Shown here piece after piece: positions 5,274-21,899 of a stretch of 32,206 bases of DNA. The notes beneath the pieces were generated by a model. That model did not search any database and was not told where the DNA came from. It was given only the letters and a program-made list of their open reading frames with translations. The stretch lies in NCBI GenBank assembly GCA_019116865.1, contig DXAW01000089.1, positions 1-32,206 of the forward strand. The letters are read 5' to 3'. Within the stretch, counting starts at the first letter, position 1, and each line of letters starts with the position of its first letter. A program made the position numbers and the translations under genes. The DNA is from Candidatus Coprenecus stercoravium. GTDB lineage: Bacteria > Bacteroidota > Bacteroidia > Bacteroidales > UBA932.

Positions 5274-6425
5274 TTAGAATGCAAGGATGAAGCGCATATC
5301 GGCCACTGAGCTTGAGGTTCCCCTGACAGAACTTACACCGTCCTCGTCATCAAGAACGATGATATATCCGTTACTTGTGTTCTGCCTGTTGGACAGGAAG
5401 TAACGGCCGGAAAGAGCCTCAGCGCCATCCAGTGCGGAAAGCTTGCCGTTGACTGCCTCTGCGGTAGGATAGGGAACTACGACAGGCTCCTCATCGTCAG
5501 ACTTCAGGATGACGGTAATGTCGGTCAGGGTATTGTCGCACAGGCGTATGAACTCACTTACGGAAGGTACGTACCAGCCGCTTGTCCTGGCAGGAGCCGG
5601 ATAAGAGACATTGTACTCATCGGCAAGCGTTACGGCGTTGAACTGCGTCTTCTCGGGATTAGCCTCGTTGAACAGGCGCATCACCTTGTTGTTGGAGTAA
5701 CCCAGCAGAGGATTTTGATCAGCGCTGAGTCCATCACCGGCTATCAAGGTATTGGTTATTGTAATGTTATCCAATATCCATGAGAAAGTGTTAATATTCG
5801 TCCAGCGGGTCTCCTGAGCCGCAGAGTTGATGGCCACTGCCAGTCCGTGAGTAGCCTCCGGATGGTCCTTTACAAGCTCGGCGTCGCCGAACTCCTGAGG
5901 ATTGGAATTATAGAACACTACGGCGATAGCCCTGGCTCCTATGGCGCTGGTGGTCTCCTTGCCCCATGTTCCGTCCTCATACACGTAGTCTCCCACCTCG
6001 GGAGCCGTGGTAGGCTCTACGGGGAACTTGGCCTCTACGCTCAGAATGTCAACTGTAAGTGTCCATTCTCCGTCGGTAGCCGTAGCGGTAATCACTCCGG
6101 ATGCAGCTCCGGATGCAGCGTCAACGGGTGAAACAACTGTAATCACACCTTCCTCCGCAGACACTGACCATCCCTCAGGATATGTGAATGTCAGCTCGGT
6201 CACCTCATAGTTAATGCTGTAGTTGAAATCCCTGGTCGCTCCGGCGTAGAATGTCTGCACCGTCCCGGCGTCCACGGGCTCGCCGCCCACGGTCACCGTG
6301 ATCTCAGGCTCCTCGCCGATAACTACCCCGAGGGAAGTGTTTGCGCTATGCGGAGGCGTTAAAAGCAAGTGCAAGGCTGTCAGACTATTAATGCGGAAAA
6401 TAGCTTCTGCCGAACAGACTTGCAC
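5274..6425 (-). pseudogene. 5'-truncated lipoprotein fragment D' (alternative C-terminal half for D)
   Basis: An open frame of 383 codons, but it has no signal peptide. Homology to D begins only at SLGVVIGEEPEITVTVGG (base 6337); the 29 codons before that read MQVCSAEAIF and come from the recombinase 3' flank, including its terminator hairpin. From 6337 on it encodes the second beta-sandwich module (GWSVSAEEGVITVVSP) and a complete DUF1566/FISUMP-like C-domain with GDYVYEDGTWG, TSGWYVPSVSEF, RYFLSNRQN and final MRFILAF. It is best read as a silent 3' half-gene that becomes functional only when joined to the 5' half of D at the 49-bp repeat, which would keep the frame. Alternatively it is a dead remnant of duplication, but the intact frame argues against long neglect. 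Confidence 0.85.
6289..6337 (-). repeat. 49-bp perfect inverted repeat D (left copy), candidate recombination site
   Basis: The minus strand from 6337 to 6289 is identical to 20836-20884. After one mismatch, similarity continues for another ~47 bp with only two more mismatches, then the copies diverge. On the recombinase side identity stops abruptly at 6337. Inside it, CCTCG and CGAGG (6333-6329 and 6315-6311) form a dyad around a short AT-richer centre, like the core of a tyrosine recombinase site. Confidence 0.9.
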
Positions 6426-6427
6426 TT
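6362..6427 (-). terminator. Terminator between recombinase and silent cassette
   Basis: On the minus strand AAGTGCAAGTCTGT (6427-6414) pairs with ACAGCCTTGCACTT (6380-6367), 14 bp with one mismatch. An inner CTATT/AATAG pair closes part of the loop, and GCTTTTA follows. It begins 14 bp after the recombinase stop, so it should stop recombinase transcripts from entering D'-E'-F'. The long loop makes it less certain than a compact terminator. Confidence 0.6.
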
Positions 6428-6440
6428 ACGGATTACTGAC
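6424..6440. repeat. 17-bp direct repeat flanking recombinase gene (left)
   Basis: ACTTACGGATTACTGAC, repeated with one mismatch at 7739-7755. The pair encloses just the recombinase gene and its upstream region. It could be a pair of recombinase-binding sites or the scar of an insertion. Confidence 0.6.
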
Positions 6441-6441
6441 G

Positions 6442-7704
6442 TCATAGGACTTTTACAGCCTCATCAATAACACTTGTGGAGAAGCTGTCCAGATAGACGT
6501 TTGTGGTCGCCAAGTCCCGGTGGCCGAGTATCTGGGAGATAATCTCACGGGGGACATTATTGTCCTGAAGAGTCATAGCCATCGTATGACGGGCGCAGTA
6601 GCTAGTCAAACGTATGTCCGTAATACCCAGAGTAGCGGCAAGAGCGGACAGATTCCGGTTGTTGCGTCCGTAGCGGCACCGGATATGCTTGTACAGCCGC
6701 TCGCCCGAATAGCCCGTGCAGGAGACGACGGGAAGCAGGTAGTCCTCAACCAATTCGGTGTTGGCGGCAAACCAGTCCAGCAGCTCCTGTATCTCGTCCG
6801 TAATTCTGATACGGAGAGGCTTTACCCGCTTCACCTCCTTGGTCTTGGTCCGTTTGTAGACGATATAGAGTCCGCCTTCGTAGCGCATTATATTCTTTCT
6901 GGTAAGCAGCGCCTCGTCTATGAACGAGATACCGCAGCAGTAATACGAGAACAGAAAAAGCCTGCGGGCTATTTCCTGGGCACGGCTGGCGACAACGGTA
7001 TTCTTCAACTTGTCCATATCGGCCTTGGGCAGATAGCGTTTGGCTGTCTCTTCCTCCAGTGCAGCGACATTGAACCCGCCTTTGCCGAAAGGATAGGTGA
7101 CTCTCGACGCCTCGCCGTCCTGAATAGCCTTGTTAATGGCTGAGCGGAGCACCTTGAAATAGAATTTTCTGGTATTGCCCCTGCACCTCCTTTTCTGAAG
7201 GAATATATCGAAGGCCTTGACATACCGTATGTCTATCTCAGGGAATACCCGCCTGGCAAAACTGCCGTCAAAAACTTCAAGTATGTGAAGAGTACGTTCA
7301 TAGCATGTGGCATTGCCGATGTGCCCGGTCTCCTTGCAGGCATCGATAAGGCATAGAAAATATTCCCGGACATTACGCTTGGCGGAGAGATGCAGGTAGG
7401 CCTGTTCGAACTGGTCAAGAGTCCAGTCTGTCCGCTCGTTCTCAAAGTCGGAGATAATGCGGAATATCTCCGACTTCTTCTGTGTCAGCCAGATATTGAG
7501 CCGAACCCTGTCGGGATGAAGGTCCGGTATCCGTCGGTCGGTGACAAGCATCTCCGCCCTGTCGTCCCACTGATGCGGCATCGCATAGATTCCGGTTGCG
7601 ATAATCCTGCGCCGGCGGTCCTTCCGCACCACCAGCCATACGGCATAACCGGCCTTGTAGAGATACTTGCCGGTAGCCCACATTTTAAAGTAAACATTGC
7701 GCAT
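6442..7704 (-). CDS. Tyrosine recombinase, probable DNA invertase of the lipoprotein locus
   Basis: 420 residues, normal length for Bacteroidetes integrase/invertase proteins. An N-terminal arm-binding region (about 1-90) and a SAM-like core-binding domain (about 105-215) precede the catalytic domain. Visible catalytic residues are Lys287 (KRTK), Tyr369 and Arg372 in SYCARH, His395 in LGH, and the nucleophile Tyr404 in NVYLDS. The usual Arg I position is Ser260 in CCGISFIDEA, as reported for IntDOT of CTnDOT. The gene reads toward the D' fragment, stops 14 bp before a hairpin, and lies about 100 bp from the left 49-bp repeat. This position suggests it flips the lipoprotein tail cassettes. It could instead be an integrase left by a lost element; no phage or conjugation genes surround it. 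Confidence 0.85.
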   Translation of the reverse strand: MRNVYFKMWATGKYLYKAGYAVWLVVRKDRRRRIIATGIYAMPHQWDDRAEMLVTDRRIPDLHPDRVRLNIWLTQKKSEIFRIISDFENERTDWTLDQFEQAYLHLSAKRNVREYFLCLIDACKETGHIGNATCYERTLHILEVFDGSFARRVFPEIDIRYVKAFDIFLQKRRCRGNTRKFYFKVLRSAINKAIQDGEASRVTYPFGKGGFNVAALEEETAKRYLPKADMDKLKNTVVASRAQEIARRLFLFSYYCCGISFIDEALLTRKNIMRYEGGLYIVYKRTKTKEVKRVKPLRIRITDEIQELLDWFAANTELVEDYLLPVVSCTGYSGERLYKHIRCRYGRNNRNLSALAATLGITDIRLTSYCARHTMAMTLQDNNVPREIISQILGHRDLATTNVYLDSFSTSVIDEAVKVL

Positions 7705-7738
7705 AAATACATGATTTTAATTTATCCGCAATAAATCT

Positions 7739-7755
7739 ACTTACGTATTACTGAC
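7739..7755. repeat. 17-bp direct repeat flanking recombinase gene (right)
   Basis: ACTTACGTATTACTGAC, 16 of 17 bases identical to 6424-6440 in the same orientation. It lies 35 bp upstream of the recombinase start, where it could also affect expression. Confidence 0.6.
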
Positions 7756-7820: not shown

Positions 7821-10800
7821 TTATTTTCCGGCCGCCTGGAGTTTCTTGGCCTCCTTGCGTGCTTTACGCAGAGAGAGGTCGTACATGATAGGCGTACCCA
7901 CGAATACTGATGAGTAAGTACCTACGAAGATACCGACGAGCAGAGCCACGGCGAATCCCCTGATAACCTCGCCGCCGAAGATGGCGATGGCGAGCATCAC
8001 GATAAATGTGGTACCCGAGGTGTTGACCGTACGGGCCAGGGTGCTGTTGATAGCGTCGTTGATATTCTGGTACAGCTCACGCTTGGGATAGAGCTTGCGG
8101 TACTCACGTATCCTGTCGAAGATAATCACACTGTCGTTGATAGAGTAACCGATAATGGTCAGCACGGCTGCGATGAAAGTCTGGTCGACATCGAGGGTGA
8201 ACGGCAGGACTCCGGTGAACAGTGAGAAGAAGCCGACTGTCACGATGGCGTCATGAGCTGTGGACACCACTCCTCCGAGACCCCATGTCCAGCCTTTGAA
8301 ACGGATGGCGATGTAGGCGAAGATAGCGAACAGAGCTATGGCCACGGCGATGAGGGAGTCACGCTTCATATCGTTGGCGATAGTAGGACCTACCTTGTCC
8401 GACTGGATGATACCGTTGGGGTTCTCCAGCGTCGAGATAAACTGATCGTAAGTGATAGGGTTGACAAAGTACTCTTTCAGTGCCTCATACAGCATGTGGT
8501 CTACCACAGCGTCTGTCTCGGTGCTCTGGTCCTCGATCATGTATGTAGTGGTGATCTTCATCTGGCTGGCACCGCCGAACTGCTTGACCTCGACACCCTC
8601 GCCGAATTCTTCCAGTACAGCTGCCCTGATTTCCTCAGCCGCTACATCCTGGTCGAAACGCACCACATAGGTACGGCCGCCGGTGAAGTCCACACCGTAG
8701 GTGAAGCCCTTGAAGACGATGGAGCCGACACATACGAGGATAAGGACAGTCGATAAGATGTAGGCGTATTTACGTATCTTGACGAAGTCAATATGAGTGT
8801 TCTGCAGGAAGTTCTTGGAGAACTTGGTGTAGAACGAGATATTCTTGCCCTTGCTGAGTCTTGCCTCGAAAATAAGTCTTGAGATGAATATCGATGTCAG
8901 CATGGAGGTGATAAGACCGATAACCAGCGTGGTGGCGAAACCCTGTACAGGACCTGAACCGAAGAAGAAGAGCACAAGACCGGTCATGATAGTGGTGAGG
9001 TTACCGTCGATGATGGCCGAGTATGCGTGCTTGTAACCGTCGGATATAGCCAGGCGGAGAGCCTTGCCGGCACGAAGTTCCTCCTTGACGCGCTCGTAGA
9101 TGATCACGTTTGCGTCCACCGCCATACCGAGGGTCAGTACCAGACCTGCGATACCGGGGAGGGTCAGCACGGCGCCGAATGAGGCGAGGGCACCGAAGAG
9201 GAAGAGAACGTTGCACAGCAGCGCTGCGTCAGCGGCCAGACCCGCACCTTTATAAAATACTATCATATACAGCAGCACCAGCAGGAAGGCTATGGCGAAA
9301 GATATCATACCTGCCTGAATGGAGGCGCTACCCAGCGAAGGTCCTACCACCTGCTCCTGAACGATGGTCGCGGGAGCGGGCAGCTTACCGGAGTTGAGCA
9401 CATTGGCAAGGTCGGTAGCCTCCTCGATGGTGAAGCTTCCCGAGATTACGGAACGGCCTCCGGTTATCTCCGTATTGACACGGGGGAATGAGTAAACCAT
9501 GCCGTCAAGCACGATGGCTATGCTCTTGCCGATATTGTCGGCTGTCAGGCGTGCCCATGTCTGGGCGCCCTCGGCGTTCATGGCCATGTCCACTTCAGGC
9601 TGGCCGCCCATATTATTATAGGAGACGCGTGCGTCGGAAACGACACCTCCGTCGAGAGGAGCCTTGCCGTCACGGGTGTTGACCTTAATGGCTATAAGCT
9701 GATAATAGTTGCCGCCGGGATATTCGGCCGAAGGCTTCACTGTCCACATAGGCACCAGGTCTGCGGGCAGCGCAGCCTTCACCTGGGGAAGTTTGAGCCA
9801 GTTGTTAATCTTGGCGGTATCTCTGTAATGAGCGATACCGATTACGGGACCGGGCATCAGCTGACCGTTGTACATCGAAGGATTGAGAGCGTAGAAGAAC
9901 GGATTGTTCCTGGCGTAGTTGAGCTCGTCAGCGGAGATAGAGTCCTCCTGTCTGGTCAACTCTGCCACCAGGTCATCGGAAGCCGAACCGGTCTCAGCCG
10001 AAGATGCCTGAACAGCCTCGGGCTTTACTGCTGCGGGAGTCTCGTCCATAGACTCCATATCCTTGATTATGCTGTTGACTTCCTGAAGGTAACGGAATAC
10101 CTCGGGATTCTCATACGTAGTCCAGAACTCGAGAGAGGCTGTTCCCTGAAGGAGCTTGCGCACACGCTCAGGCTCTTTCACACCGGGAAGCTCGACCAGT
10201 ATGCGGCTTGAGGTACCGAGTCTCTGAATATTGGGGGAAGTCACACCGAAACGGTCAATACGGTTGCGGAGCACATTGAATGAGTTGGCGACAGCGCTCT
10301 CGGCCTGCTCACGGAGAACAGCGATAACCTGATCGTTGGTGCTCTGCGCATTGATTCTGTCCCTGAGGTCTATTGTTCCGAATATCTGGGAGAGTCTCTG
10401 ATTGGGAGCCACCTCATCCCATGCCTCATGGAAGAGTGTGATGAAGTCGACATTGCCGCCTGATGCTCTCTCTCTCTCCTTTGCCAGAGCTATGGCCTGC
10501 TCGAACTCGGGTGAAGTGTTGTAGTTGGACAGCGCTCTCACGAGGTCGCTCAACTGCACCTCAAGCATGACGTTCATACCGCCCTTGAGGTCAAGACCCA
10601 GATTGATCTCCTTCTCCTGCACCTCCTTGTAAGTATAGCCGAGATATACTTTCTCAGCACTTACAGAGTCGATGTAATACCTGTTTCTTTCTTTTCTGAT
10701 TGAGTCCAGATAATAGGCCTTATCCAGATCAGACACCTCTGCGAAAGAGGCTTTCTGCTGCTCTGCCTCGACTGCGGCCTCAGCAAACTTCTCGGCCTTG

Positions 10801-10898
10801 TTCTGCTGAATCGCAGAAACGCCTGTGAAAGAAAGCTGATACAGACATGCCAGAGCGATCAAAACCGCCAATAGAGTAATGGCTCCTTTACTTTGCAT
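7821..10898 (-). CDS. secDF: Fused protein translocase subunit SecDF
   Basis: 1025 residues, the usual length of the Bacteroidetes SecD-SecF fusion, which uses the proton gradient to help pull proteins through SecYEG. The N-terminal membrane segment is near residues 5-25. The SecD mark NLGLDLKGGMNVMLEV is near residue 100, followed by the periplasmic P1 region with FNVLRNRIDRFGV. The SecD membrane half has LTLGMAVDANVIIYERVKEE. The SecF half begins with GVDFTGGRTYVVRFDQD and has IIGYSINDSVIIFDRIREY. A charged C-terminal tail ends in KLQAAGK. The gene stands alone between its own terminator and a divergent intergenic region. It is a core gene, so its place inside a putative invertible segment is notable. 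Confidence 0.97.
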   Translation of the reverse strand: MQSKGAITLLAVLIALACLYQLSFTGVSAIQQNKAEKFAEAAVEAEQQKASFAEVSDLDKAYYLDSIRKERNRYYIDSVSAEKVYLGYTYKEVQEKEINLGLDLKGGMNVMLEVQLSDLVRALSNYNTSPEFEQAIALAKERERASGGNVDFITLFHEAWDEVAPNQRLSQIFGTIDLRDRINAQSTNDQVIAVLREQAESAVANSFNVLRNRIDRFGVTSPNIQRLGTSSRILVELPGVKEPERVRKLLQGTASLEFWTTYENPEVFRYLQEVNSIIKDMESMDETPAAVKPEAVQASSAETGSASDDLVAELTRQEDSISADELNYARNNPFFYALNPSMYNGQLMPGPVIGIAHYRDTAKINNWLKLPQVKAALPADLVPMWTVKPSAEYPGGNYYQLIAIKVNTRDGKAPLDGGVVSDARVSYNNMGGQPEVDMAMNAEGAQTWARLTADNIGKSIAIVLDGMVYSFPRVNTEITGGRSVISGSFTIEEATDLANVLNSGKLPAPATIVQEQVVGPSLGSASIQAGMISFAIAFLLVLLYMIVFYKGAGLAADAALLCNVLFLFGALASFGAVLTLPGIAGLVLTLGMAVDANVIIYERVKEELRAGKALRLAISDGYKHAYSAIIDGNLTTIMTGLVLFFFGSGPVQGFATTLVIGLITSMLTSIFISRLIFEARLSKGKNISFYTKFSKNFLQNTHIDFVKIRKYAYILSTVLILVCVGSIVFKGFTYGVDFTGGRTYVVRFDQDVAAEEIRAAVLEEFGEGVEVKQFGGASQMKITTTYMIEDQSTETDAVVDHMLYEALKEYFVNPITYDQFISTLENPNGIIQSDKVGPTIANDMKRDSLIAVAIALFAIFAYIAIRFKGWTWGLGGVVSTAHDAIVTVGFFSLFTGVLPFTLDVDQTFIAAVLTIIGYSINDSVIIFDRIREYRKLYPKRELYQNINDAINSTLARTVNTSGTTFIVMLAIAIFGGEVIRGFAVALLVGIFVGTYSSVFVGTPIMYDLSLRKARKEAKKLQAAGK

Positions 10899-10940
10899 AT
10901 CAAAATCCTTTTAAACTTTTTTGCATAAAAATTGAGGGTA

Positions 10941-10948
10941 CAAAAGTA
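10941..10948 (-). promoter_or_regulatory. -7 box of the secDF promoter
   Basis: TACTTTTG on the minus strand matches TAnnTTTG and lies 42 bp upstream of the secDF ATG. No good -33 TTTG is found at the usual distance. Confidence 0.45.
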
Positions 10949-10978
10949 CTATTTTTTTCTTATTTGTAAAGTATTTAG

Positions 10979-10986
10979 TAATTTTG
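10979..10986 (+). promoter_or_regulatory. Possible -7 box for the 11004-16005 operon
   Basis: TAATTTTG fits TAnnTTTG and lies 17 bp before the ATG at 11004. The nearest upstream TTTG (10963-10966) is only 12 bp away, closer than usual, so the assignment is weak. Confidence 0.35.
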
Positions 10987-11003
10987 TTGACTACAATTTT
11001 ACT

Positions 11004-12857
11004 ATGACTGCCCTGCGAAAACTTCTCATAGTCATGCCTGCGCTCTGCGTGTTCTGCCTGCCGGCATACGGACAGGCTGATATTTTTCATAAGAACTACC
11101 AGTTCGACAAGGCAATAGAGCTGTATGAAAATATTCTGGACAGTCTTTCTTCCACAGGGGACTCCAGCGGGATGGACAAGGTGGCCGGACTTCTTACCCA
11201 GTGTCAGAACGGGCTGAACATGATGCAGTACATCGTCCGTCCGGAGCCGGTTGCGGTCAAGTCCGTGCCGGTGAAAGAGTTTTTCCTTTATCTCAAGGAC
11301 TTGCCCGACAAGTCATGGATACCTGTTCCCAATCCTTTTGTCAAGACTCCCGGCAGCGGCACACACCCGTTCTATAAAGCCATGTACCTCCCTGCCGGCG
11401 ACACGCTGGTCTTCTCCGCTCCTGACACTGACGGTTTCTGGAAGATACACGTATCCTACCGCAAGGACAGTGTGACCTGGACTTCCCCGGTCATCCTCAG
11501 CGAGACTCTGGTCTCCGGCCGCAATGAGATATTCCCGATGATGAGCCGGGACGGCGGCACTCTGTACTTTGCTTCCGACGGCATGCCGGGCATGGGAGGC
11601 TACGACCTCTTCCGCTCCACATGGGACGGGACTACCGGGACCTGGAGCACTCCTGAGAACCTAGGATTCCCTTATTCTTCTACCGGCAACGACATACTCT
11701 TCCTCAACAGCAGCGACGGACGCTACTCGATTATCGTCTCCGACCGTATTGCGGAGGCGGATTCCGTGGACATATTCGTTACGGGCCTCATAGCCACTCC
11801 TGTAAAGACTCCGCTGGGCAGGGACGAGTCTCCGGTACGCATAGCCTCGCTCACTCCAAAGCCAGCTCCTGAAGCGGCCGCAGAGAAGTCTGAAACATCC
11901 AGACCTACTGTGGACCGGGACGCATACTCGGATCTTATGCACGAGTTGCGCAGTCTCAGAAGCGAGCAGAGAGGGATACTTGACAAGATTGATGAAAGCC
12001 GGAAAATCTATGAGACCACTTCCGGAGACGACCGTGATTTCATGGCATCCATCATCAATGACCTGGAACGGAAAGCACTGAATGTCCGCAAGCGCATAGA
12101 CGAGGCATCGGCCCGGGTGCGCAAGATGGAAATCCAGTTCCTCTCCGACGGCATATTCCCGACGGAATACGGAGAACCGGCCCCCGAAAGCAGTGCGGAA
12201 AAGCCGGCCGCTCCGGAAAAGTACGGATTCATAAAGCGTAACATGGGGCGTATTCCTTATGTGGTAGTGGAAGTTCCGGAGCCCGAATTCGATTATACGT
12301 TCAGGATACTGGGAAGAGACAAAGGGCAGTTCGCCGAGGACAACACCCTTCCGGAAGGCGTGGTGTATCAGATACAGTTCGCAGTCCTCTCGTCCCGTGC
12401 GTCGGTCAGGGACATCAAAGGCATGACACCGGTATTCGTAACCAGGATGCCGTCCGGAAAATATGTCCACAATGCCGGGCTGTTCCGTACCTATGGAGAG
12501 GCTCAGTCCGCTCTGGGCAGTATCCGTAAAATAGGATTCAAGGACGCATTCATCGTGGCCTACCGGGACGGCGTCAACATCCCGGTAAAGACGGCGCGTA
12601 CGCTGGAGGGACGTTCCGTCTCAGGCCTGTCGTGCCAGGTGGTCCTGCGTGGAGCCGGAGAGTCGCTGCCGGCCCAGGCCGTGGACGCAGTGAGAGAAAC
12701 CTGCTCCAAGGACATTACCAAGTTCGTCTCAGACGGGCAGGCGGTGTTTGCGGTAGGCCCGTTCAGAAACGCTGACGAGGCCCGTCCTCTGGTCTCCGCA
12801 CTACAGGACCTGAATCTTGACAACATCGACATCACAATAGAATATATTAAAAGGTAA
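11004..12857 (+). CDS. PD40-repeat and SPOR-domain envelope protein
   Basis: 617 residues from the ATG at 11004; the open frame runs further upstream, but this start gives a clean signal peptide (KLLIVMPALCVFCLPAYGQA). A TPR-like segment (DKAIELYENILDSL) is followed by WD40-like/PD40 beta-propeller motifs such as DGGTLYFASDGMPGMGGYDL, typical of Bacteroidetes outer-envelope proteins. A coiled coil lies near residues 310-380. A SPOR-like, possibly peptidoglycan-binding domain at about 450-520 contains YQIQFAVLSS and AGLFRTYGEAQSAL; a second, weaker SPOR-like unit follows at the C-terminus (FAVGPFRNADEARPLVSAL). It is the first gene of an apparent operon, 12 bp before the NfeD gene. Substrate unknown; an envelope or cell-wall-linked role is inferred. 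Confidence 0.75.
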   Translation: MTALRKLLIVMPALCVFCLPAYGQADIFHKNYQFDKAIELYENILDSLSSTGDSSGMDKVAGLLTQCQNGLNMMQYIVRPEPVAVKSVPVKEFFLYLKDLPDKSWIPVPNPFVKTPGSGTHPFYKAMYLPAGDTLVFSAPDTDGFWKIHVSYRKDSVTWTSPVILSETLVSGRNEIFPMMSRDGGTLYFASDGMPGMGGYDLFRSTWDGTTGTWSTPENLGFPYSSTGNDILFLNSSDGRYSIIVSDRIAEADSVDIFVTGLIATPVKTPLGRDESPVRIASLTPKPAPEAAAEKSETSRPTVDRDAYSDLMHELRSLRSEQRGILDKIDESRKIYETTSGDDRDFMASIINDLERKALNVRKRIDEASARVRKMEIQFLSDGIFPTEYGEPAPESSAEKPAAPEKYGFIKRNMGRIPYVVVEVPEPEFDYTFRILGRDKGQFAEDNTLPEGVVYQIQFAVLSSRASVRDIKGMTPVFVTRMPSGKYVHNAGLFRTYGEAQSALGSIRKIGFKDAFIVAYRDGVNIPVKTARTLEGRSVSGLSCQVVLRGAGESLPAQAVDAVRETCSKDITKFVSDGQAVFAVGPFRNADEARPLVSALQDLNLDNIDITIEYIKR

Positions 12858-13361: not shown

Positions 13362-14323
13362 TTTCTTCTACAGGCATTATCCTTATCTGGATAGCGGTGG
13401 CGGTAGTCGCCCTGATTATCCTGCTGTGGTTTTTCCCGGTCACTCTCTGGTTCCAGGCCCTCATCTCCGGAGTCAGAATATCGCTTATACAGCTGGTACT
13501 GATGAGATGGAGGAAAGTGCCGCCCAGCACTATCGTCATGGCAATGGTCACCGGTACCAAAGCCGGTCTTAAGCTCGACGCCAATGCGCTTGAGGCCCAT
13601 TATCTGGCCAAGGGCAACGTTCCCAATGTGGTCAACGCACTTATCTCAGCGGACAAAGCCAATATCGCTCTCGACTTCAAGATGGCTGCGGCTATTGACC
13701 TTGCCGGCCGCGACGTATTCGAGGCCGTACAGATGTCAGTCAATCCCAAGGTCATCAATACCCCTCCTGTGACCGCAGTGGCAAAAGACGGTATACAGAT
13801 GATAGCGAAGGCCAGGGTCACTGTCCGCGCCAACATCAAGCAGCTCGTAGGAGGCGCCGGCGAAGAGACGGTTCTGGCCCGTGTAGGCGAGGGCATCGTA
13901 TCCAGCATCGGTGCTTCCGAGTCACACAAGGACGTGCTCGAACATCCTGACTCCATATCAAAAGTAGTACTGGCCAAAGGTCTTGACGCAGGTACTGCTT
14001 TCGAGATTCTCTCCATCGACATAGCTGATATCGACATCGGAAAGAACATCGGAGCTGTCCTCCAGATCGACCAGGCCAATGCCGACAAGAACATAGCTCA
14101 GGCCCGCGCCGAAGAGCGCCGTGCCATGGCCGTTGCCCAGGAGCAGGAAATGAAGGCCAAGGCCCAGGAAGCCCGTGCAAAGGTCATCGAAGCAGAAAAA
14201 GAGATACCTCTCGCCATGGCCGACGCATTCCGCTCAGGTAATCTCGGCATCATGGATTACTACCGGATAAAGAATATCCAGGCCGATACCGATATGAGAG
14301 AGAACATAGCCAAGGAACAGTAG
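13358..14323 (+). CDS. floA: Flotillin-like protein FloA
   Basis: 321 residues. An N-terminal membrane anchor (about 5-30) is followed by the conserved FloA stretch [19 protein letters not shown] and a PHB/SPFH-like region with [20 protein letters not shown]. An alanine- and glutamate-rich coiled coil ([20 protein letters not shown]) leads into the C-terminal region ending [20 protein letters not shown]. FloA scaffolds membrane microdomains and pairs with NfeD, which is the preceding gene. Its stop codon shares one base with the GTG start of the next gene. Confidence 0.95.
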
Positions 14324-16005
14324 TGGAACTTCGCCGCATCATACAGATACTATTGCTGACTTTATTGCCGGCGGTTCTCCATGCGGGAGAGCAGCCGGTA
14401 GTAAGTCATGCGCTTCTGCATCTATATCAGGACAGACTGAACGATGACAGAGACAAGGCCATGGAGTATGCCGAGCAATACCTCTACGATGTGGATCTGT
14501 CATCCATCGACACGGCTACGGTCAGAATATGCGCGGACCTGGCGGAATGGTACGGTACGGAACGCTACATCTTCTCCAAAGCAGAGCACTGGGGAGCCAT
14601 AGCCCTGAACGCCTACCGCAGGCTGGGAGAAGAAAGGCTCTCCGCCGTCACTGAGTCCAAGCTCGCCAAACTGTATTATCAGCAGTACAAATATCACAAG
14701 GCGCTTAAGCATGCTGTCTCGGCCCTCAAATATTTCGAGGCGCACGATGATGCGGAAAGCGCCCTTGACCTGTACAATCTGCTCGGAGCCATATTCTACA
14801 TGTGCGGAGACAACAGTACTGCGCAGAGCTATATGCAGACCTATCAGGACCTGGCACAGGAGCTTCAGGACAGTGTCGCCATAGCATTGGCACTTAACAA
14901 TATGGCCATATACTGCGAGGACACCGCCACCCAGCACAAGCTTACCGAGGAAGCCATCAGGATATGCGGACACACCGACGATACTGTCCGGCTCGGCAAG
15001 ATAGTGCTCAATGCTGCCGGCACCGCCATTCACAGCGGTGACCTCAGAATGGCGGGACGGTTTCTGGACCAGTCACGTCCCCTGCTTTCCAATGTGGATC
15101 TGAGCGGGTACTACAATTATCTCAAAGCCTCGCTGCTTTATAAAGAGGGCGACTATGCGAAGGCTGCGGATACCGTAGCCAGGGCGATAGATTTCTACAG
15201 CGGTACCGAGTTCTTCACGGCCCAGTCTCTCTGCTGGCTGCTTTCCAACGACATACACCTCGCCCTTGGAGATACCGTCAACGCGTACAATGCCCTGACC
15301 CACTATCACAGCATTGACCCGGCCCTTTTCAATGTCAATACCTATGTGGAACTTTTCAAGTACCAGCACGAGTTGATCCGGCAGAGCGAGCGGGAGGCTT
15401 TCATCAAGGATTCCCACAACCGCATTGCGGTAGCTTCCATTTTTGCCCTGGCTTTTATCATACTGCTGTCCCTGTTCCTTTCCAAGTGGACCAGAGACAG
15501 AGACCGCATACGCAGGCAGAACCATGTCATCAGGAACTACCAGATAGAGAACCAGCGCTACGAGAACGATATACGCTACAAGACCGAGAGCATAGAGGCC
15601 AAGAAAGTACAGCAGTACAGAGCCTCCAGGCTGGCCTCCGAGATCAGCGACAGGCTCCGTGACCTCAATCGGGAAGTCAAGGATCAGGATATACGCAACC
15701 GCATCAATTCCATACGCAACGACCTCCAGAATATGGAGGGAGATCGCTGGAAGCCCCTCGACAAGTACATGCCAGAGCTGGACAGTCCGCTTATGAAAAA
15801 GCTTCTCCGCCACTTCCCCAACCTTACAGTCAACGAGAGGCGGCTATGTGTTTTCCTCAACATGAACCTCAGTACAAAGGAGATATCCGACATCACCAGA
15901 CAGAGCATACAGAGCATCAACACGGCCCGTACGAGGATGCGCAGCAAGCTGGGACTGACCGGGAAAAACATCTCCATACAAGAATTTCTCTCCAGTTTGG
16001 AGTAG
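14323..16005 (+). CDS. TPR sensor-regulator with transmembrane segment and LuxR-like HTH
   Basis: 560 residues from a GTG that shares a base with the floA stop; this start gives a proper signal peptide (IIQILLLTLLPAVLHAG). Residues about 30-340 are helical TPR-like repeats (KALKHAVSALKYFEAHDDAE; YLKASLLYKEGDYAKAADTV). One transmembrane helix lies at about 368-388 (VASIFALAFIILLSLFL), then a cytoplasmic coiled coil. The C-terminus (about 490-560) is a LuxR-like helix-turn-helix: LTVNERRLCVFLNMNLSTKE, then SIQSINTARTRMRSKLGL. Such one-piece TPR-TM-HTH proteins are widespread in Bacteroidetes, and their targets are mostly unknown. It lies directly upstream of the lipoprotein operon promoter, so it may control that operon; this is inference. 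Confidence 0.82.
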   Translation: MELRRIIQILLLTLLPAVLHAGEQPVVSHALLHLYQDRLNDDRDKAMEYAEQYLYDVDLSSIDTATVRICADLAEWYGTERYIFSKAEHWGAIALNAYRRLGEERLSAVTESKLAKLYYQQYKYHKALKHAVSALKYFEAHDDAESALDLYNLLGAIFYMCGDNSTAQSYMQTYQDLAQELQDSVAIALALNNMAIYCEDTATQHKLTEEAIRICGHTDDTVRLGKIVLNAAGTAIHSGDLRMAGRFLDQSRPLLSNVDLSGYYNYLKASLLYKEGDYAKAADTVARAIDFYSGTEFFTAQSLCWLLSNDIHLALGDTVNAYNALTHYHSIDPALFNVNTYVELFKYQHELIRQSEREAFIKDSHNRIAVASIFALAFIILLSLFLSKWTRDRDRIRRQNHVIRNYQIENQRYENDIRYKTESIEAKKVQQYRASRLASEISDRLRDLNREVKDQDIRNRINSIRNDLQNMEGDRWKPLDKYMPELDSPLMKKLLRHFPNLTVNERRLCVFLNMNLSTKEISDITRQSIQSINTARTRMRSKLGLTGKNISIQEFLSSLE

Positions 16006-16099
16006 TATATCACATTGATATTTCGATTTTTGCCGCAATTGTACCACATTTGTAGCAGTGCCTTTTAACCTGCTCTAAGCAATATTTTACCGAAAGACA

Positions 16100-16130
16100 T
16101 TGCAAAACTGGATTTATTTTCCCAATTTTG
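16100..16130 (+). promoter_or_regulatory. Promoter of the A-F lipoprotein operon
   Basis: TTG at 16100-16102 and CAATTTTG at 16123-16130 are 20 bp apart, matching Bacteroidetes -33/-7 spacing with one mismatch in the -7 box. The predicted start of transcription is about 35 nt before gene A. A palindrome, GAAAATTTTC (16132-16141), covers the expected start site. No terminator is visible between 16005 and here, so read-through from the upstream operon is possible. Confidence 0.5.
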
Positions 16131-16172
16131 AGAAAATTTTCAAATTTTAAAAAGATTTTAAAGTAAGAACTT

Positions 16173-17885
16173 ATGAAACAACTAATTATTCTTGCATCCA
16201 CAATGTTGCTTCTAGTTTCACTCGGATCGTGCAGTAAGTACGATGACTCAGGTATCCGCGACTATATGTCGGAGATATCCGGAAGAGTGGACTCTCTAGA
16301 ATCCCGAGTTGACTCCATCCAGTCAACAATCAACACATTACAGGCACTCGTCGACAGGCAGCAGGGCCGTATCACGGTCGACTCTGTAGAGCAGTTGAAA
16401 GACAGTGTAGCCATCCATTTCTCCGACGGAAAGATTGTAAGCCTCGCTGACGGCGAGGACGGAAATCCCGCCAGTGACGGTACCCCCGGCTCTACACCCG
16501 CGGCTATCACCGTTGTCAAAGGAGAGGACGGCGTTTACTACTGGGCGACTGTTAAAGAAGGCGAGGAGCCCAAGGTTATCGAGGTAGACGGTAAGAAGTT
16601 CCCCACCTCCACAGAGGCCCCTAAGATCCGCATCAATGAGGAGAGTGGTTACTGGGAAGTATACTCCAACGGAGAGTGGAAGACGACCAACGTATCCGCC
16701 GAAGACGCAGGTGCCACCTACATCACCAAGATTGAGGAAAAAGAGACTACCATCGACGTGACTCTCGCCGGCGACGTCCCCCTTACTTTCGAGAAGACTA
16801 TCGAGCTTAGTCTGCAGTTCCTGAGCAAGGAGGAAGAGGGCGAGGCCATCACCGCAGCTTACTTCCCTTCAGAGGCAGGCGAGACACAGGGCATCAAATA
16901 CAAAGTTACTCCTGCGAACGCTCAGATAACTCTCACCAAGCCTGAGGGCTGGAAGGCTGTCCTCAATGAGGAAACCGGTGAAATCGACATCACAAGCCCC
17001 TCAAGCAACAACACCTATGCTGAGAAATACGGCAAGGTATCCGCTCTGCTCACCCTTGAGGACGGCAGCAGCGCCATCGCATCTCTTGACGTATATATAG
17101 GTAACCCTCCTTCCTCGGAAGTGTTCGTCGGTGACTATCTCTATTCGGACGGCACATGGTCCACAGACCTCTATGAGGGCAAGGAAGTCATAGGTATCGT
17201 ATTCTGGGCCGGCAATCTCGGAGCAGAGGACGCCGAATTGGCAAAGGATCATCCCGATGCAGTCAACGGACTAGCTGTATCACTTGAATATGCGTTTAAC
17301 CCCGTGAATTGGCTTCCTAATACTATCAGCATAGCAGACTGGATCGAGACCAGCGATGTCAGCGGTATAGAGAACTCACTCCAAGGTGGTACCGATAAAG
17401 ATACAGAACCTTCCAATTTTTATGCTCTCGGATATGCCAACACCAAGATTATGAGAGCTTTCTTCGAAGAGTATGCTGGTTTCACTCTCCTGGACTACCT
17501 CACTAGATTCGAAAAAGAAAATCCTGCTCCCGAAAAAACCAGCGGATGGTTCATCCCCTCAGTACAGGAGTTCTCCCGTCTCTGCTTCGGCAGTTCCACT
17601 GCCTACACCAACCTCGTAGGTAAAGAATGTACTGTTGTAACAACTGTCAATGAAAAGCTCGAGGCTTTAGGTTACACTCCTTTCAATTTGGAAACGGATA
17701 GACTTTGGCTCAGCATGGAATGCGATGAATCCCGGGCCTACGTTGGATATTTCAACAACAACGGAGATGCCGTTGAAGACGAGATTACCGGTGAGCTCTT
17801 AGGTTTCGCCAACACCTCTAGAGCTTTCAAATCCACAACAATTGCTGCGCAGATGTCGTATGTACGTCCAGTTATAGCTTTCTAA
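16173..17885 (+). CDS. Lipoprotein A (DUF4988-like, lectin-like C-domain)
   Basis: 570 residues. The lipobox SLGSC has Cys20, followed by SKYDDS. A heptad-rich coiled coil with repeating RVDSLESRVDSIQSTINTL occupies about 28-65. Next come a FSDGKIVSLADGEDG strand with a short Gly-rich link instead of long GDK repeats, a beta region (YYWATV, KIRINEESGYWEV), and one beta-sandwich module (GWKAVLNEETGEIDITSPSS). The DUF1566/FISUMP-like C-domain has GDYLYSDGTWS, VIGIVFWAGN, TSGWFIPSVQEFSRLC, RLWLSM and VRPVIAF. It is the first gene of the operon, 14 bp before B. It is a paralogue of D with only one beta-sandwich module. Being upstream of all inverted repeats, it should stay expressed in either orientation. 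Confidence 0.85.
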   Translation: MKQLIILASTMLLLVSLGSCSKYDDSGIRDYMSEISGRVDSLESRVDSIQSTINTLQALVDRQQGRITVDSVEQLKDSVAIHFSDGKIVSLADGEDGNPASDGTPGSTPAAITVVKGEDGVYYWATVKEGEEPKVIEVDGKKFPTSTEAPKIRINEESGYWEVYSNGEWKTTNVSAEDAGATYITKIEEKETTIDVTLAGDVPLTFEKTIELSLQFLSKEEEGEAITAAYFPSEAGETQGIKYKVTPANAQITLTKPEGWKAVLNEETGEIDITSPSSNNTYAEKYGKVSALLTLEDGSSAIASLDVYIGNPPSSEVFVGDYLYSDGTWSTDLYEGKEVIGIVFWAGNLGAEDAELAKDHPDAVNGLAVSLEYAFNPVNWLPNTISIADWIETSDVSGIENSLQGGTDKDTEPSNFYALGYANTKIMRAFFEEYAGFTLLDYLTRFEKENPAPEKTSGWFIPSVQEFSRLCFGSSTAYTNLVGKECTVVTTVNEKLEALGYTPFNLETDRLWLSMECDESRAYVGYFNNNGDAVEDEITGELLGFANTSRAFKSTTIAAQMSYVRPVIAF

Positions 17886-17899
17886 CCATTTAACGAATC

Positions 17900-18880
17900 A
17901 TGAACATGAAAAGATACATCTATTTCTTGACAGCACTGCTCGCTGCATCAGCTTCATTCTCTTCGTGCAGCAAGTATGATGACAGCGAACTTTATAACTC
18001 CCTCACCGAGCTTGACAACAGGCTTGAGGGTATAGAGATTCTGGTAGAATCCATGCAGTCGGACATCGACGCCCTGCGTCTGATCGCCCAGAATATCCAG
18101 ACATCTGTCACACTGGACTCGGTTGAGTCCCTTGAGGACGGAGGATACAGGTTCTACTTCTCCAACGGTACTGTGGCAGATGTTACCGACGGTATCGACG
18201 CTGCGGACGGAATTCCCGGCACTAGCGGAAAGAACGAACCCGGCATCACCATCAGGAAAGACGAAAAAGATGGTAAATACTACTGGTGCTATGAGGGCGA
18301 GAACGGAGCCTGGCTCACTGACGCAGCCGGCAATAATATCAACGTTGAGCACACAGCTCCCCAGCTCAGGCTTACAGACGATGGTAACTGGGAGTATTCT
18401 GTGGACGGCGGTGCGAACTGGCTTCCTGTAAAGGGCGGCAGCAGCACAGGTATAGGTGGTCAGGGCTCGTTCATAACATATGTGGACACTGATGATCCCA
18501 ACTACGTCACCATCACTCTGCGCGGAGGCACCGAGCTTGTAATCCCCAGAACCGATGCGGACCTGAACCTGAAGGCAAAGCTCACTTCTGACGCTAATGG
18601 CCAGACAGAGATTACAAGTACCATAAGATTAAGAAATGGGCAGACTCAGACTATATACGTTACCGTTCCCGATCGGGAGCACAAACTGACATTCATCGCT
18701 CCCGACGGCTGGACAGCAACATATACCCCCGCCGCTCAGGATGCGGTCACTGGAACACTCGTCATCAAGGCTCCCGCCGAGGCCGATACATATGCTGAGG
18801 AAAGCGGTATTCTCAGCGCAGTTCTCGTCCTCGAAGACGGCAGAACTTTCGTAACATCCATTAATGTGGAACTTATATAA
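17900..18880 (+). CDS. Short lipoprotein B (DUF4988-like, no C-terminal domain)
   Basis: 326 residues. Lipobox FSSC (Cys23) followed by SKYDDS; coiled coil at about 33-65; FSNGTVADVTDG; a short Gly-rich link without GDK repeats; a KYYWCYEGENGAWLTDAAGN segment. One beta-sandwich module (GWTATYTPAA, GTLVIKAPAEADTYAEESG) ends the protein at SINVELI, exactly where A and D continue into another domain. It could be a naturally short family member or a remnant that lost its C-domain. Its stop is 22 bp before C. It may serve as a partner or base subunit for the longer proteins. Confidence 0.82.
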   Translation: MNMKRYIYFLTALLAASASFSSCSKYDDSELYNSLTELDNRLEGIEILVESMQSDIDALRLIAQNIQTSVTLDSVESLEDGGYRFYFSNGTVADVTDGIDAADGIPGTSGKNEPGITIRKDEKDGKYYWCYEGENGAWLTDAAGNNINVEHTAPQLRLTDDGNWEYSVDGGANWLPVKGGSSTGIGGQGSFITYVDTDDPNYVTITLRGGTELVIPRTDADLNLKAKLTSDANGQTEITSTIRLRNGQTQTIYVTVPDREHKLTFIAPDGWTATYTPAAQDAVTGTLVIKAPAEADTYAEESGILSAVLVLEDGRTFVTSINVELI

Positions 18881-18902
18881 CTAAATCTAAAGACACACGG
18901 AT

Positions 18903-19847
18903 ATGAAACCAATTATCAGCATATTTTCAGCTCTCCTGGCTACGACACTTCTTGTAGGCGCCTGCAGCCAGTTCGATGACACCGACCTGAAGAACTCGAT
19001 CAGCGAGATTACAGACAGAGTCGACAGTCTCGAAGCACGCACAAGCACCGTGCAGTCAGACATTACAGCACTGCAGACGATACTCAACCAGATTGAAGCC
19101 GAAGTCACTGTGGACGCTGTCTCCAGGACAGAGGAAGGCTGTGTTATCCAGTTCTCGGACGGAAAGACCGTTACCATCCGTGACGGCGTAAAAGGAGCGG
19201 ACGGTAAACCGGCACCTGACGGAACTCCCGCTGCCCGTATCACTGTGATTGAGGACAACGGCAACTATTTCTGGGGTTATATCGATGAGAACGGTGAGTC
19301 TCAGTATTTCCTCAACGACAATGATGAGCGTATCCCCACTTCTGCCATTATCCCCACTGTCAGAATCAACGACAAGGGAGAATGGGAAATGTCCGTTGAC
19401 GGTGGCGCTAACTGGACTTCTCTTGGCGTCAATGCTATGGGCGATAGTCCTGTCTTCTACAATCTGTATGAGGACGAGTCCAACGTCTATATCATCCTGA
19501 CCAGCGGCGCAAAGCTCACTATCCCCAAGACTCCCGACCTTACTTTTGAGTTCCAGCTTGACGGACAGGCAGTTACCGAGGCCTATTTCACAGCCGGTGA
19601 GGCTAAGTCGTTCGACTTCAAGTGCCCTATGTACGAGTCGGCCGAGATTACATTTACCAAACCCTACGGATGGAAAGTGTCCATCACAGACAATAGCCTG
19701 ACCATTACCGCTCCTGTCGCTGAGAACACGGCAGCCGCTCAGTCCGGCACTGTTACCGCACTCGTCTCCGCAGGAAACTCCACTGCCGTTTCTTCCATCG
19801 ACGTGAAGATCGGCACAGCCCCCGAAACACCGGAGGCTACTGAGTAG
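18903..19847 (+). CDS. Short lipoprotein C (DUF4988-like, no C-terminal domain)
   Basis: 314 residues. Lipobox LVGAC (Cys21) followed by SQFDDTDLKNS, very close to F. A coiled coil (RVDSLEARTSTVQSDITALQ) precedes FSDGKTVTIRDGVKG and a short Gly-rich linker without long GDK repeats, then YFWGYIDENGESQYFLND. A single beta-sandwich module contains GWKVSITDNSLTITAPVAEN and closes with SSIDVKIG, after which the protein ends within ten residues (TAPETPEATE). Like B it stops at the module border where D carries the 49-bp recombination site. It lies 27 bp before D. Confidence 0.82.
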   Translation: MKPIISIFSALLATTLLVGACSQFDDTDLKNSISEITDRVDSLEARTSTVQSDITALQTILNQIEAEVTVDAVSRTEEGCVIQFSDGKTVTIRDGVKGADGKPAPDGTPAARITVIEDNGNYFWGYIDENGESQYFLNDNDERIPTSAIIPTVRINDKGEWEMSVDGGANWTSLGVNAMGDSPVFYNLYEDESNVYIILTSGAKLTIPKTPDLTFEFQLDGQAVTEAYFTAGEAKSFDFKCPMYESAEITFTKPYGWKVSITDNSLTITAPVAENTAAAQSGTVTALVSAGNSTAVSSIDVKIGTAPETPEATE

Positions 19848-19874
19848 CAACTTACTTACTTAATATAAAAGTTT

Positions 19875-21899
19875 ATGAAACAACTGATCAACAAACCCTG
19901 CCGCGCTCTGATGGCGATCATCGCGGCATCCCTCGCATTCGTTGCGGTTCTCGGATCCTGCAGCGGATACGATGACACAGAGCTTAAAAACTCTGTTGCT
20001 GAACTCGGTGACAGACTGACTGCACTGGAGTCCTTAAGGGACGGTATTCAGGCTGACATCGATGGCCTCCAGGCTCTCGTAGAGAATCTGGAGAGCGGCT
20101 CCACCATCACCAAGGTGGATTCCACAGCTGATGGATTTACTATTTACTTCGCCAATCCCGCGGATACTGTAAAGGTGTCCAACGGAGCGAAAGGAGACAA
20201 AGGTGACAAAGGCGACAAGGGTGAGGCCGGCCAGCCGGGTATAGCCGGAGAGGACGCACCCTCAGTCATTGTCAAATACGATGAGACCGATCAGAAATAC
20301 TACTGGGGTCTCAAAAACTCTGATGGAACAGAGGACTTCATTAAGGTAAGCGGAAATAAAGTCCCTGTGGCTTCCGGAAACCTTACAGTAGAACTCAACG
20401 ATAACGATGAGTGGGTAATAAAAGTAGACGGCCAGCAGATTGGTGACCCCATCCCCTCAGTAAGCTCAAATGTTTACATCCAGGGTGTGACTATCGATAA
20501 GGAAGCCGGTACTGTCACTCTTAAAATCAACGACGAGGTATCACTCACCTATGACCTTACAGTCGAGCTCAGTCTGATCTTCGGAACTGAGGAGGAGCCT
20601 GTAAGCGTGCTCTTCTTCGAGTACGGTGTTCCGCAGGAAGTTTCCTACGTTCTCGCAGCCCCCGAAGAGGCAACCATGACCATCACCAAGCCCGAAGGCT
20701 GGAAGGTAACAAACAACACAGCTGACTCGAAGCTCACTATCATTCCTCCTACAGAAGAGGTAAAGGACTATGCAGAGCTTGAGGGCAACATCTCTATTCT
20801 GCTGACCAACCCTGCTGACGGTTCCAGCGCCATCTCTTCCCTCGGGGTAGTTATCGGCGAGGAGCCTGAGATCACGGTGACCGTTGGCGGCGAGCCCGTG
20901 GACGCTGAGACGGTGCAGACATTCTACGCCGGCGCTCCGGTGGAGTATTCGTATTCGCTTACCCCTGCCGGCACCGAGGTGACCTTCAACGCACCCCAGG
21001 GCTGGACTCTGACCCCCGCCGAGGGAGCCACCTCGTTCACCCTTGAGGCACCCGCCGAGGGCATGGGAGCCACCGAGGGCGAGGTTACCGCCACTGTCGG
21101 CAGCGGCCTCTCCGAGGTGACCGTACTCCTGTTTTCAGTAAAGGCTGTGTACGGTCTTGAGAACGAGCCGGAGATATCCGAGCTCGGCAAGCCCGAGGCC
21201 GGCTGGTACCTCTACTCCGACGGCCGCTGGTACGAGGAGTACTACCCGTTCAAGGAGGTTGTCGGCGTCATCTTCTGGGTGGCCGGCGAGGGAGAGGGCC
21301 ACACTGACCCCGAGCTTGTCAAGGCGCTCTCCGACAGCCCCTACAAGTTCCACGGCCTGGCCGTCTCGATCGAGAACGCACCGGGAGGAACCTGCTTATG
21401 GTCTACCTTCGGCATAGCCGACTGGCTTGAAAGCGCCAGCACCATCTCCGACAACACGGTACTGGTAGGCAGCGCAGATGATGAGAACAACCTCGCCAAG
21501 GCCTACGGCTACACCAACACCCTGGTGATGAAGCAGTGCTACGAGGAGTATGTTCCCGGCGCAGGCGTGATGATGAAGGTCATCGAGGGCCTCGAGTCCT
21601 ACGGAACCGAGGTTCCCGAGCACACCAGCGGCTGGTACATCCCCTCCGGCCAGGAGTACGTCATGCTCTGCGGCGGTGCTCCCGTGGAGAAGCCTATTGA
21701 GGGCGGCTTCGGCACCGACAACATTGCCGTGGTCAACGCCAGCCTCTCCGCCCTGGGCTCCGAGATGGCCTCCGAGGTGACCAACCTTTGGCTGTCGCAC
21801 GGCAACGCAACTCCCAGATACGCCTGGTACGGACAGAGCGGTACCATTGGCATAACGAAAAGTGCCTCCAAGAACGTGCGTCCCATCCTTGCATTCTAA
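19875..21899 (+). CDS. Lipoprotein D, contains the inverted-repeat crossover site
   Basis: 674 residues. Lipobox VLGSC (Cys29) followed by SGYDDTELKNS; coiled coil; GDKGDKGDKGEAGQPG collagen-like stretch; a first beta-sandwich module (GWKVTNNTADSKLTIIPP). At SLGVVIGEEPEITVTVGG (about residue 322) the gene crosses the 49-bp repeat shared with D'. A second sandwich module (GWTLTPAEGATSFTLEAP) and a DUF1566/FISUMP-like C-domain follow (GWYLYSDGRWYEEYYP, TSGWYIPSGQEY, LWLSHGNATP, VRPILAF). Base composition changes sharply at the repeat: by hand count 20341-20400 is 45% GC and 21001-21060 is 72%. This indicates a mosaic gene whose 3' half came from elsewhere. It is 28 bp before E. Confidence 0.87.
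   Translation: MKQLINKPCRALMAIIAASLAFVAVLGSCSGYDDTELKNSVAELGDRLTALESLRDGIQADIDGLQALVENLESGSTITKVDSTADGFTIYFANPADTVKVSNGAKGDKGDKGDKGEAGQPGIAGEDAPSVIVKYDETDQKYYWGLKNSDGTEDFIKVSGNKVPVASGNLTVELNDNDEWVIKVDGQQIGDPIPSVSSNVYIQGVTIDKEAGTVTLKINDEVSLTYDLTVELSLIFGTEEEPVSVLFFEYGVPQEVSYVLAAPEEATMTITKPEGWKVTNNTADSKLTIIPPTEEVKDYAELEGNISILLTNPADGSSAISSLGVVIGEEPEITVTVGGEPVDAETVQTFYAGAPVEYSYSLTPAGTEVTFNAPQGWTLTPAEGATSFTLEAPAEGMGATEGEVTATVGSGLSEVTVLLFSVKAVYGLENEPEISELGKPEAGWYLYSDGRWYEEYYPFKEVVGVIFWVAGEGEGHTDPELVKALSDSPYKFHGLAVSIENAPGGTCLWSTFGIADWLESASTISDNTVLVGSADDENNLAKAYGYTNTLVMKQCYEEYVPGAGVMMKVIEGLESYGTEVPEHTSGWYIPSGQEYVMLCGGAPVEKPIEGGFGTDNIAVVNASLSALGSEMASEVTNLWLSHGNATPRYAWYGQSGTIGITKSASKNVRPILAF
20184..20228 (+). 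repeat. In-frame 9-bp repeats encoding Gly-Asp-Lys
   Basis: Three adjacent 9-bp units (GGAGACAAA, GGTGACAAA, GGCGACAAG) with degenerate flanking units encode GDKGDKGDKGE. Similar tracts lie in F' (about 2750-2800) and E' (about 4921-4960). Slippage would change linker length in frame. Confidence 0.6.
20836..20884 (+). repeat. 49-bp perfect inverted repeat D (right copy), candidate recombination site
   Basis: Identical to the reverse complement of 6289-6337. It starts CTTCCCTCGGGG and ends GGTGACCGT, with near-identity continuing to 20932 (three mismatches). The dyad CCTCG/CGAGG falls at 20840-20862. It lies at the border between two beta-sandwich modules of D, so a crossover replaces whole domains in frame. 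Confidence 0.9.

Follow-up and report, generated by a model that had tools for sequence, protein, structure and literature searches.

A putative 14.5-kb invertible segment that would exchange the tail genes of a surface-lipoprotein operon in Candidatus Coprenecus stercoravium

Introduction

Variation of surface proteins driven by DNA inversion is a known kind of system, to which the locus described here would add a variant. It lies in a 32,206-nt stretch of DNA from Candidatus Coprenecus stercoravium (Bacteroidales; GenBank DXAW01000089.1), called the window below, which is one whole contig (C76) of a metagenome-assembled genome in 149 contigs with 81.61% completeness and 5.79% contamination. 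Within it, two copies of a 49-bp inverted repeat enclose a segment that carries a tyrosine recombinase, secDF, floA, and the head of an operon of surface lipoproteins (genes A to F), while two sets of tail genes, D-E-F and D'-E'-F', lie outside.

In Campylobacter fetus, the sap inversion depends on RecA: the moving segment holds a promoter and secretion genes, the alternative surface genes lie outside it, and the S-layer genes diverge after shared 5' ends. In phage Mu, where Gin is a serine invertase, the end of gene S and all of gene U change together. Inversion of the Mu G segment (gin) is described as altering the expressed tail-fibre pair, S+U or S'+U' (PMC4406740). For Bacteroides fragilis, PMC5729914 describes a SusC/SusD shufflon (region EE), in which large segments invert and alternative outer-membrane protein genes are placed behind one promoter, and BT1927 of Bacteroides thetaiotaomicron is presented as a phase-variable S-layer protein in PMC12548429. 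In Eggerthella lenta, according to PMC13174815, inversions occur between capsule clusters and move a large segment with many other genes, with a 16-bp inverted repeat.

The present locus resembles these systems in part. As in Mu G, the end of one gene and the entire genes following it are exchanged together and in frame, here by virtual inversion only, an inversion computed in silico. However, the variable genes move in Mu, whereas in this locus it is the constant head, along with housekeeping genes, that moves and the variable tails that stay, and three genes are affected; moreover, the gene adjoining a repeat encodes a tyrosine recombinase and not a serine invertase, for which no search elsewhere in the genome was made. 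With the SusC/SusD shufflon, as described, the locus shares Bacteroidales surface proteins and large inverting segments; in that description the repeats overlap start codons and whole gene pairs are brought in, whereas here the repeat lies inside D, half a gene and two further genes would change, and secDF and floA would ride along. A shufflon with at least three copies of one recombination site was not found, as the genome has two copies of the repeat block. Like BT1927, the locus would provide a phase-variable surface protein in the same bacterial order, but the published description of BT1927 is of a promoter inversion that turns one gene on or off, whereas tails would be exchanged here and the repeats lie within coding sequence, 14.5 kb apart. 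The C. fetus system involves other proteins in another phylum, and that of E. lenta, as reported, spans about 2 Mb between capsule clusters in a different phylum.

Results

Two tail sets flank a segment bounded by inverted repeats

The features on which the comparison rests are the following.

6289 to 6337, minus strand: left copy of the 49-bp perfect inverted repeat, from sequence comparison
20836 to 20884, plus strand: right copy of the repeat, from sequence comparison; codons 321-337 of D
19875 to 21899, plus strand: D, DUF4988 lipoprotein; about codons 1-321 within the segment, tail (D3') outside
21928 to 24255, plus strand: E, lipoprotein with C-type-lectin-like tail; set now joined to the operon
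24276 to 26210, plus strand: F, lipoprotein with a different tail, unmatched by the lectin-like profile; set now joined to the operon
5274 to 6335, minus strand: D' tail, 353-codon open frame without a lipoprotein start, beginning at the left repeat copy
3109 to 5244, minus strand: E', lipoprotein with DUF4988 and C-type-lectin-like tail, second set
1106 to 3088, minus strand: F', lipoprotein with DUF4988 stalk and C-type-lectin-like tail, second set
6442 to 7704, minus strand: tyrosine recombinase with arm-binding, SAM-like, and integrase domains

An original prediction made from the sequence had named a perfect 49-bp inverted repeat, matching gene order on its outer sides, a reading frame conserved across it, and a tyrosine recombinase just inside its left copy, and each of these was recovered: the repeat by a repeat search, D'-E'-F' on the minus and D-E-F on the plus strand, the start of D joined in frame to the D' tail, and the recombinase about 100 bp from the left repeat. 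Paired inverted repeats with an adjoining recombinase gene enclose the segment, as in inversion switches. The repeat is nested in a 110-nt block of 94% complementarity (6238-6347 and 20826-20935), and a search of the window's genome found this block at these two places only. Inward of the 49 bp, the copies have no further homology; outward, the D and D' tails are identical at 94 of 100 nt and at 56 of the next 100, and their identity stays at 44-65% per 100 nt over the remainder of D. After virtual inversion at the 49-bp repeat, D measures 674 aa and carries the D' tail, while E, F, E', and F' remain unbroken. Folding of the repeat itself is no better than that of shuffled sequences (z +0.7).

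Both tail sets look working and include lectin-like tails

Scored against Pfam cut-offs, DUF4988 was found in A to F, E', and F', and the same proteins start with a lipoprotein-like signal, called by the lipobox motif; D' has neither. In conserved blocks, E and E' differ at 55, 49, and 113 sites of codon positions 1, 2, and 3, respectively, and F and F' at 27, 21, and 68; the D tails, with 40 usable codons only, differ at 4, 5, and 10. This codon-position bias is as for expressed genes, and on this measure both sets look working.

A profile of 14 D-type tails, among whose rows are A, D, and D', further detects E, E', and F' and has no match to B, C, or F. It matched residues 263-510 of PDB 4eps_A with an E of 3.7e-30; 4EPS is described as a Bacteroides ovatus tip pilin with a C-type lectin domain (PMC10743442). 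The tails thus resemble, at the level of profiles, the C-type-lectin domain of this Bacteroides tip pilin. Since AlphaFold gave only a weak model for the D tail (mean pLDDT 62) and Foldseek gave no PDB match for that model at E <= 0.001, the lectin assignment rests on the sequence profile. The tail of F is similar (30%) to the end of a gene in a related genome, G004. Because the D-type tails match 4eps and the F tail is distinct, exchange would alter ligand-binding-like tips, and in the case of F even the kind of tip. Several of the lipoproteins also have collagen-like Gly-X-Y stretches after a coiled-coil-like start (20178-20260, 4889-4983, 2736-2805, and 24568-24610); the Pfam collagen scores of D and E are under the cut-off.

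Content of the segment and terminator-like hairpins

The segment holds, besides the recombinase and the first part of D, the genes listed here, among them secDF and floA, as had been proposed.

7821 to 10898, minus strand: secDF
10932 to 12857, plus strand: 641-aa protein weakly like the OmpA/PorE families, below cut-offs
12870 to 13361, plus strand: nfeD-like gene, slightly under the Pfam cut-off
13358 to 14323, plus strand: floA
14323 to 16005, plus strand: TPR protein, candidate operon regulator (the role is a guess)
16173 to 17885, plus strand: A, DUF4988 lipoprotein with D-type tail
17900 to 18880, plus strand: B, DUF4988 lipoprotein
18903 to 19847, plus strand: C, DUF4988 lipoprotein

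Members of the multi-copy family of the TPR protein (14323-16005) were detected in 18 of 398 family genomes at 1e-30, and several loci place one just upstream of genes with D-like tails. Three terminator-like hairpins stand at the ends of the tail sets and between the recombinase and D'.

6350 to 6445, minus strand: hairpin followed by TTTT between recombinase and D', a likely terminator (minimum free energy -26.6, z -3.1, 0/200 shuffles as stable)
26248 to 26280, plus strand: terminator-like hairpin after F (z -6.2, 0/200 shuffles as stable)
1040 to 1105, minus strand: terminator-like hairpin after F' (z -3.8, 0/200 shuffles as stable)

The arms contain longer inverted matches

By length, the 49-bp repeat ranks only fifth among the exact inverted matches. 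The four longer ones lie in the arms, within blocks of homology (420, 238, and 162 nt, 87-89% identity).

3030 to 3136, minus strand, to 24228-24334: 107-bp match, end of E/E' and start of F/F'
5103 to 5199, minus strand, to 21973-22069: 97-bp match, start of E/E'
3467 to 3525, minus strand, to 23839-23897: 59-bp match, tail of E/E'
2817 to 2872, minus strand, to 24492-24547: 56-bp match, within F/F'

All five exact matches leave intact frames after virtual inversion. The 49-bp repeat and the other islands have no common core down to 8 bases; therefore, they are not copies of one recombinase site, and the longer matches make homologous recombination at several places possible. The arm islands, judged by their sequence, point to homologous exchange, by inversion or gene conversion, and not to extra copies of one site. 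The predicted exchange of half of D together with all of E and F thus holds in so far as it is in frame on virtual inversion, but the 49-bp repeat is not its sole possible crossover. It is tempting to speculate about a nested modular switch, in which, in addition to the site of 49 bp in D, the islands at the E start, the E tail, the E-F joint, and in F allow in-frame inversions, and the D, E, and F modules are mixed independently by inversions in succession, although we regard this as rather unlikely.

The recombinase has direct repeats of its own

All three Pfam domains of the recombinase (arm-binding, SAM-like, and integrase) score over their cut-offs. Two direct repeats bracket the gene, as is seen for the integrase of an integrative mobilisable element.

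6424 to 6440, plus strand: 17-nt direct repeat, left copy
7739 to 7755, plus strand: 17-nt direct repeat, right copy, 16/17 identical

Allowing up to 3 mismatches, this pattern, which was picked after a repeat search, has 2 matches in the window against 0.05 expected, and 0 of 100 shuffles had 2; at up to 1 mismatch in the 19 genomes of the genus, it occurs at these two places and once, with one mismatch, in G010. No mobilisation or replication genes stand between the direct repeats, where the recombinase is the only credible gene.

At 1e-110, the recombinase matches in 4 of 398 family genomes, namely the window's own and G004, G016, and G010, where the kin (57-60% identity) are solitary and share one polysaccharide-type locus (by eye). 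Around these three copies, only short or imperfect inverted pairs were found (e.g., 24 nt at 83% and 32 nt at 78%). Seven rows of the recombinase tree form a group (98/98) in which the window's copy branches first; the others are the three solitary copies and L159, L160, and L172 from other genera, the last adjoining relaxase-like genes. A search of GTDB found 14 loci, for 11 of which the translations were inspected by eye. The kin of the recombinase include mobile-element integrases (by eye), and because of its own direct repeats, action of the enzyme on the 49-bp repeats is doubtful. That this enzyme performs the inversion is favoured by its position beside the left repeat, but the same direct repeats and kin speak against it, and the longer arm homologies offer a RecA route.

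Side observations on this family concern its surroundings. The solitary kin at the polysaccharide-type locus in G004, G016, and G010 are L043, L045, and L047, and at the same locus in G017 (L181) a distant recombinase stands beside a gene resembling (by eye) the NusG/UpxY-type antiterminator family; such a polysaccharide-type locus with a recombinase could be a capsule switch. Six of the 14 loci from GTDB (L159, L160, L163, L165, L170, and L172) have the recombinase gene no more than about 0.5 kb from the end of a contig, as though assembly were interrupted beside it.

The block is inverted in one relative

The genomes compared were species-level consensus genomes, one per species, with a genus set of 19 including the window's own (G000). 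The orientation of the block was compared across this set and proved not to be fixed. Among the 18 relatives, floA faces pepSY and secDF is on the far side in 12 (G016, G009, G013, G014, G008, G017, G007, G011, G001, G012, G003, and G018, the last with two genes between floA and pepSY), whereas G004 alone has the opposite layout, with secDF facing pepSY. Five relatives were not judged: the contig of G002 starts inside the block, G005 has a weak pepSY-like match only, on the floA side, none was seen in G006, and the contigs of G010 and G015 are short. A tnaA-like gene lies downstream of secDF in 11 of 12 relatives searched (14 loci), separated from it by 3.8 kb in G008 and G012; the exception is G003, where the stretch examined did not contain the gene. 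The left end of the window holds the start of a tnaA-like gene and overlaps contig C39 by 131 exact bp.

In G004, one contig has secDF and, 78 bp on, pepSY-HK-RR. A second has the tnaA-side genes followed by a Crp-like gene (by eye), a Big_2-domain protein, F-like and E-like genes, and a D-like tail reaching the end of the contig. On a third are the remainder of floA, tpr, A, B, C, and a D with a tail that likewise extends as far as its contig does. The two D ends are probably one gene with a short gap. This is the layout predicted for the window's inverted form, minus the recombinase, D3', E, and F. The block is reversed relative to both flanks; therefore, it was inverted during evolution. 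In the secDF tree used for placing G004 and G000, both fall with G010, G016, G009, and G013 into one six-species group (91/86, below the tool's star), so that one gain and one loss of the operon suffice.

Some neighbouring features deserve mention. A glycoside-hydrolase-like gene (by eye) of about 3.7 kb, in two frames in G008, lies directly downstream of secDF in G008, G012, and G003 (L059, L069, and L071), and therefore this spot takes up insertions. Positions 1-131 of the window match the start of C39 exactly, within the tnaA-like gene, and the assembly graph probably branches just upstream; this branch perhaps corresponds to strains with and without a thiE-F'-E'-D' insertion. Further to the right, the 3' part of a tRNA-Pro and its downstream sequence are repeated (109 nt, 98%) at 30504-30640 and 31764-31872, 1.2 kb apart, and the repeats enclose small genes for ribbon-helix-helix-like and RelE/YafQ-like proteins. 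The region looks like a small toxin-antitoxin island inserted at the tRNA.

Inverted pairs at other loci

A search for inverted pairs of at least 24 nt (seed 16) at 14 loci with tpr or DUF4988 kin (L055, L141-L147, and L149-L154) gave one palindrome only, in L146. No inverted pair was found in L136 and L138, and L148 has one 25-nt hairpin; of six more loci, L176, L179, and L182 gave none and L177, L178, and L181 gave palindromes or hairpins. On contig C82 of G007, which has both a recombinase (match of 27%) and a DUF4988 gene, no inverted repeat was found. In L181, a 22-nt pair at 91%, with arms 8.6 kb apart and the left one about 300 bp from the distant recombinase (28%), is probably due to chance, as the matching stretch stops at 22 nt and no duplicated gene set is enclosed.

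Discussion

We consider it rather probable that this locus switches surface proteins between two states, possibly more. The moving block, at about 6313-20860, would comprise A, B, C, and D up to about codon 321, as the operon head, and would also include secDF, floA, and the recombinase; two fixed tail sets, each closed by its terminator-like hairpin, would remain outside. A single inversion at the 49-bp repeat would substitute the D' tail, E', and F' for the lectin-like D tail and the complete E and F, and the hairpin that separates D' from the recombinase would prevent expression of the idle set. As enzymes, the adjoining recombinase and RecA, acting on the longer arm homologies, are candidates. 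We observed the anatomy, the frames intact both ways, the codon-position bias between the sets, and the evolutionary inversion in a relative. From these, we infer ongoing reversible switching and a silent idle set, with a possible function in adhesion or antigenic variation. As a whole, the predicted tail-swapping inversion agrees with the anatomy and with the reversal of the block in G004 relative to both flanks, but other crossovers are possible and its promoter did not appear in our scans.

That last point belongs to a group of observations that weigh against such a switch. The promoter had been placed on the right arm only, but a strict scan of the window for TTTG-N17-23-TANNTTTG hit twice, in neither case close to gene A. 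A sigma-70-type scan of 13000-27000 yielded 21 sites where 10.7 were expected, and the gap upstream of A had none of these on its plus strand; neither scan located the operon promoter. A leaky hairpin could let transcription from the recombinase extend into E' and F'. The window's genome contains no inverted junction, only the two present ones, in a consensus assembly of a type in which both orientations are not expected to co-occur, and 0 exact matches to the 49-bp repeat were found in viral contigs. In G004, none of the three block contigs has a recombinase of this family, whose sole close copy lies elsewhere in the genome; the locus has one tail set, and no second set was found. One old inversion of the whole secDF-to-F block would equally yield the G004 layout, with no need for a crossover within D. 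Judging by their placement around the gene, the direct repeats may be the true sites of the recombinase, and several of the inspected kin from GTDB adjoin relaxase-, primase-, or helix-turn-helix-like genes (by eye).

These observations bear unequally on four other explanations. The collinear arms might undergo homologous (RecA) recombination or gene conversion, with the 49-bp repeat as one island and the recombinase as a bystander, and we give this somewhat less than an even chance. The four longer matches with their surrounding blocks, the absence of any 8-mer shared with the 49-bp repeat, the frames kept at all five matches, and the recombinase's own direct repeats agree with it, but RecA alone does not account for a D' start that coincides exactly with the 49-bp repeat and lies about 100 bp from the recombinase. 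Some islands span gene starts or signal peptides and could be held alike by selection, against which their identity at every codon position speaks. Mobile-element-like kin and direct repeats that hug the gene on both sides, in a pattern so rare in the window and the genus, would also be accounted for if the recombinase were the integrase of a tiny integrated element whose target is the 17-nt direct repeat and not the inverted repeat. We take this possibility seriously while leaning away from it, as mobilisation genes are absent between the direct repeats and the kin in G004, G016, and G010 are likewise solitary at one polysaccharide-type locus, so that solitary chromosomal members exist.

An old inverted duplication that no longer flips, with the G004 inversion as a rare rearrangement fixed once, appears unlikely to us. 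It would suit the single orientation in the assembly, the orientation shared by 12 of 18 relatives, and G004 with its single tail set and no recombinase found at the locus; however, the start-less D' tail stays open for 353 codons, and the codon-position bias between the sets and the islands of recent identity also speak against it. An assembly artefact joining two loci of different strains is very improbable. Although a metagenome-assembled genome of this fragmentation and contamination could suggest it, the flanks agree with those of the relatives, tnaA on the left and pepSY-HK-RR on the right, and the segment retains the relatives' backbone order.

If the surface-protein switch that we favour is real, several adhesin-like surface lipoproteins would be changed at once with no change in the operon head and its neighbours, and core envelope genes (secDF, the OmpA/PorE-like gene, and floA) would change orientation along with the surface coat. 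Were the nested form true as well, F could alternate between a lectin-like and another tail. The host genus is known mostly from metagenomes. If such switching is shown, methods that seek only short invertible promoters would miss large inversions whose silent tails lie outside the moving segment.

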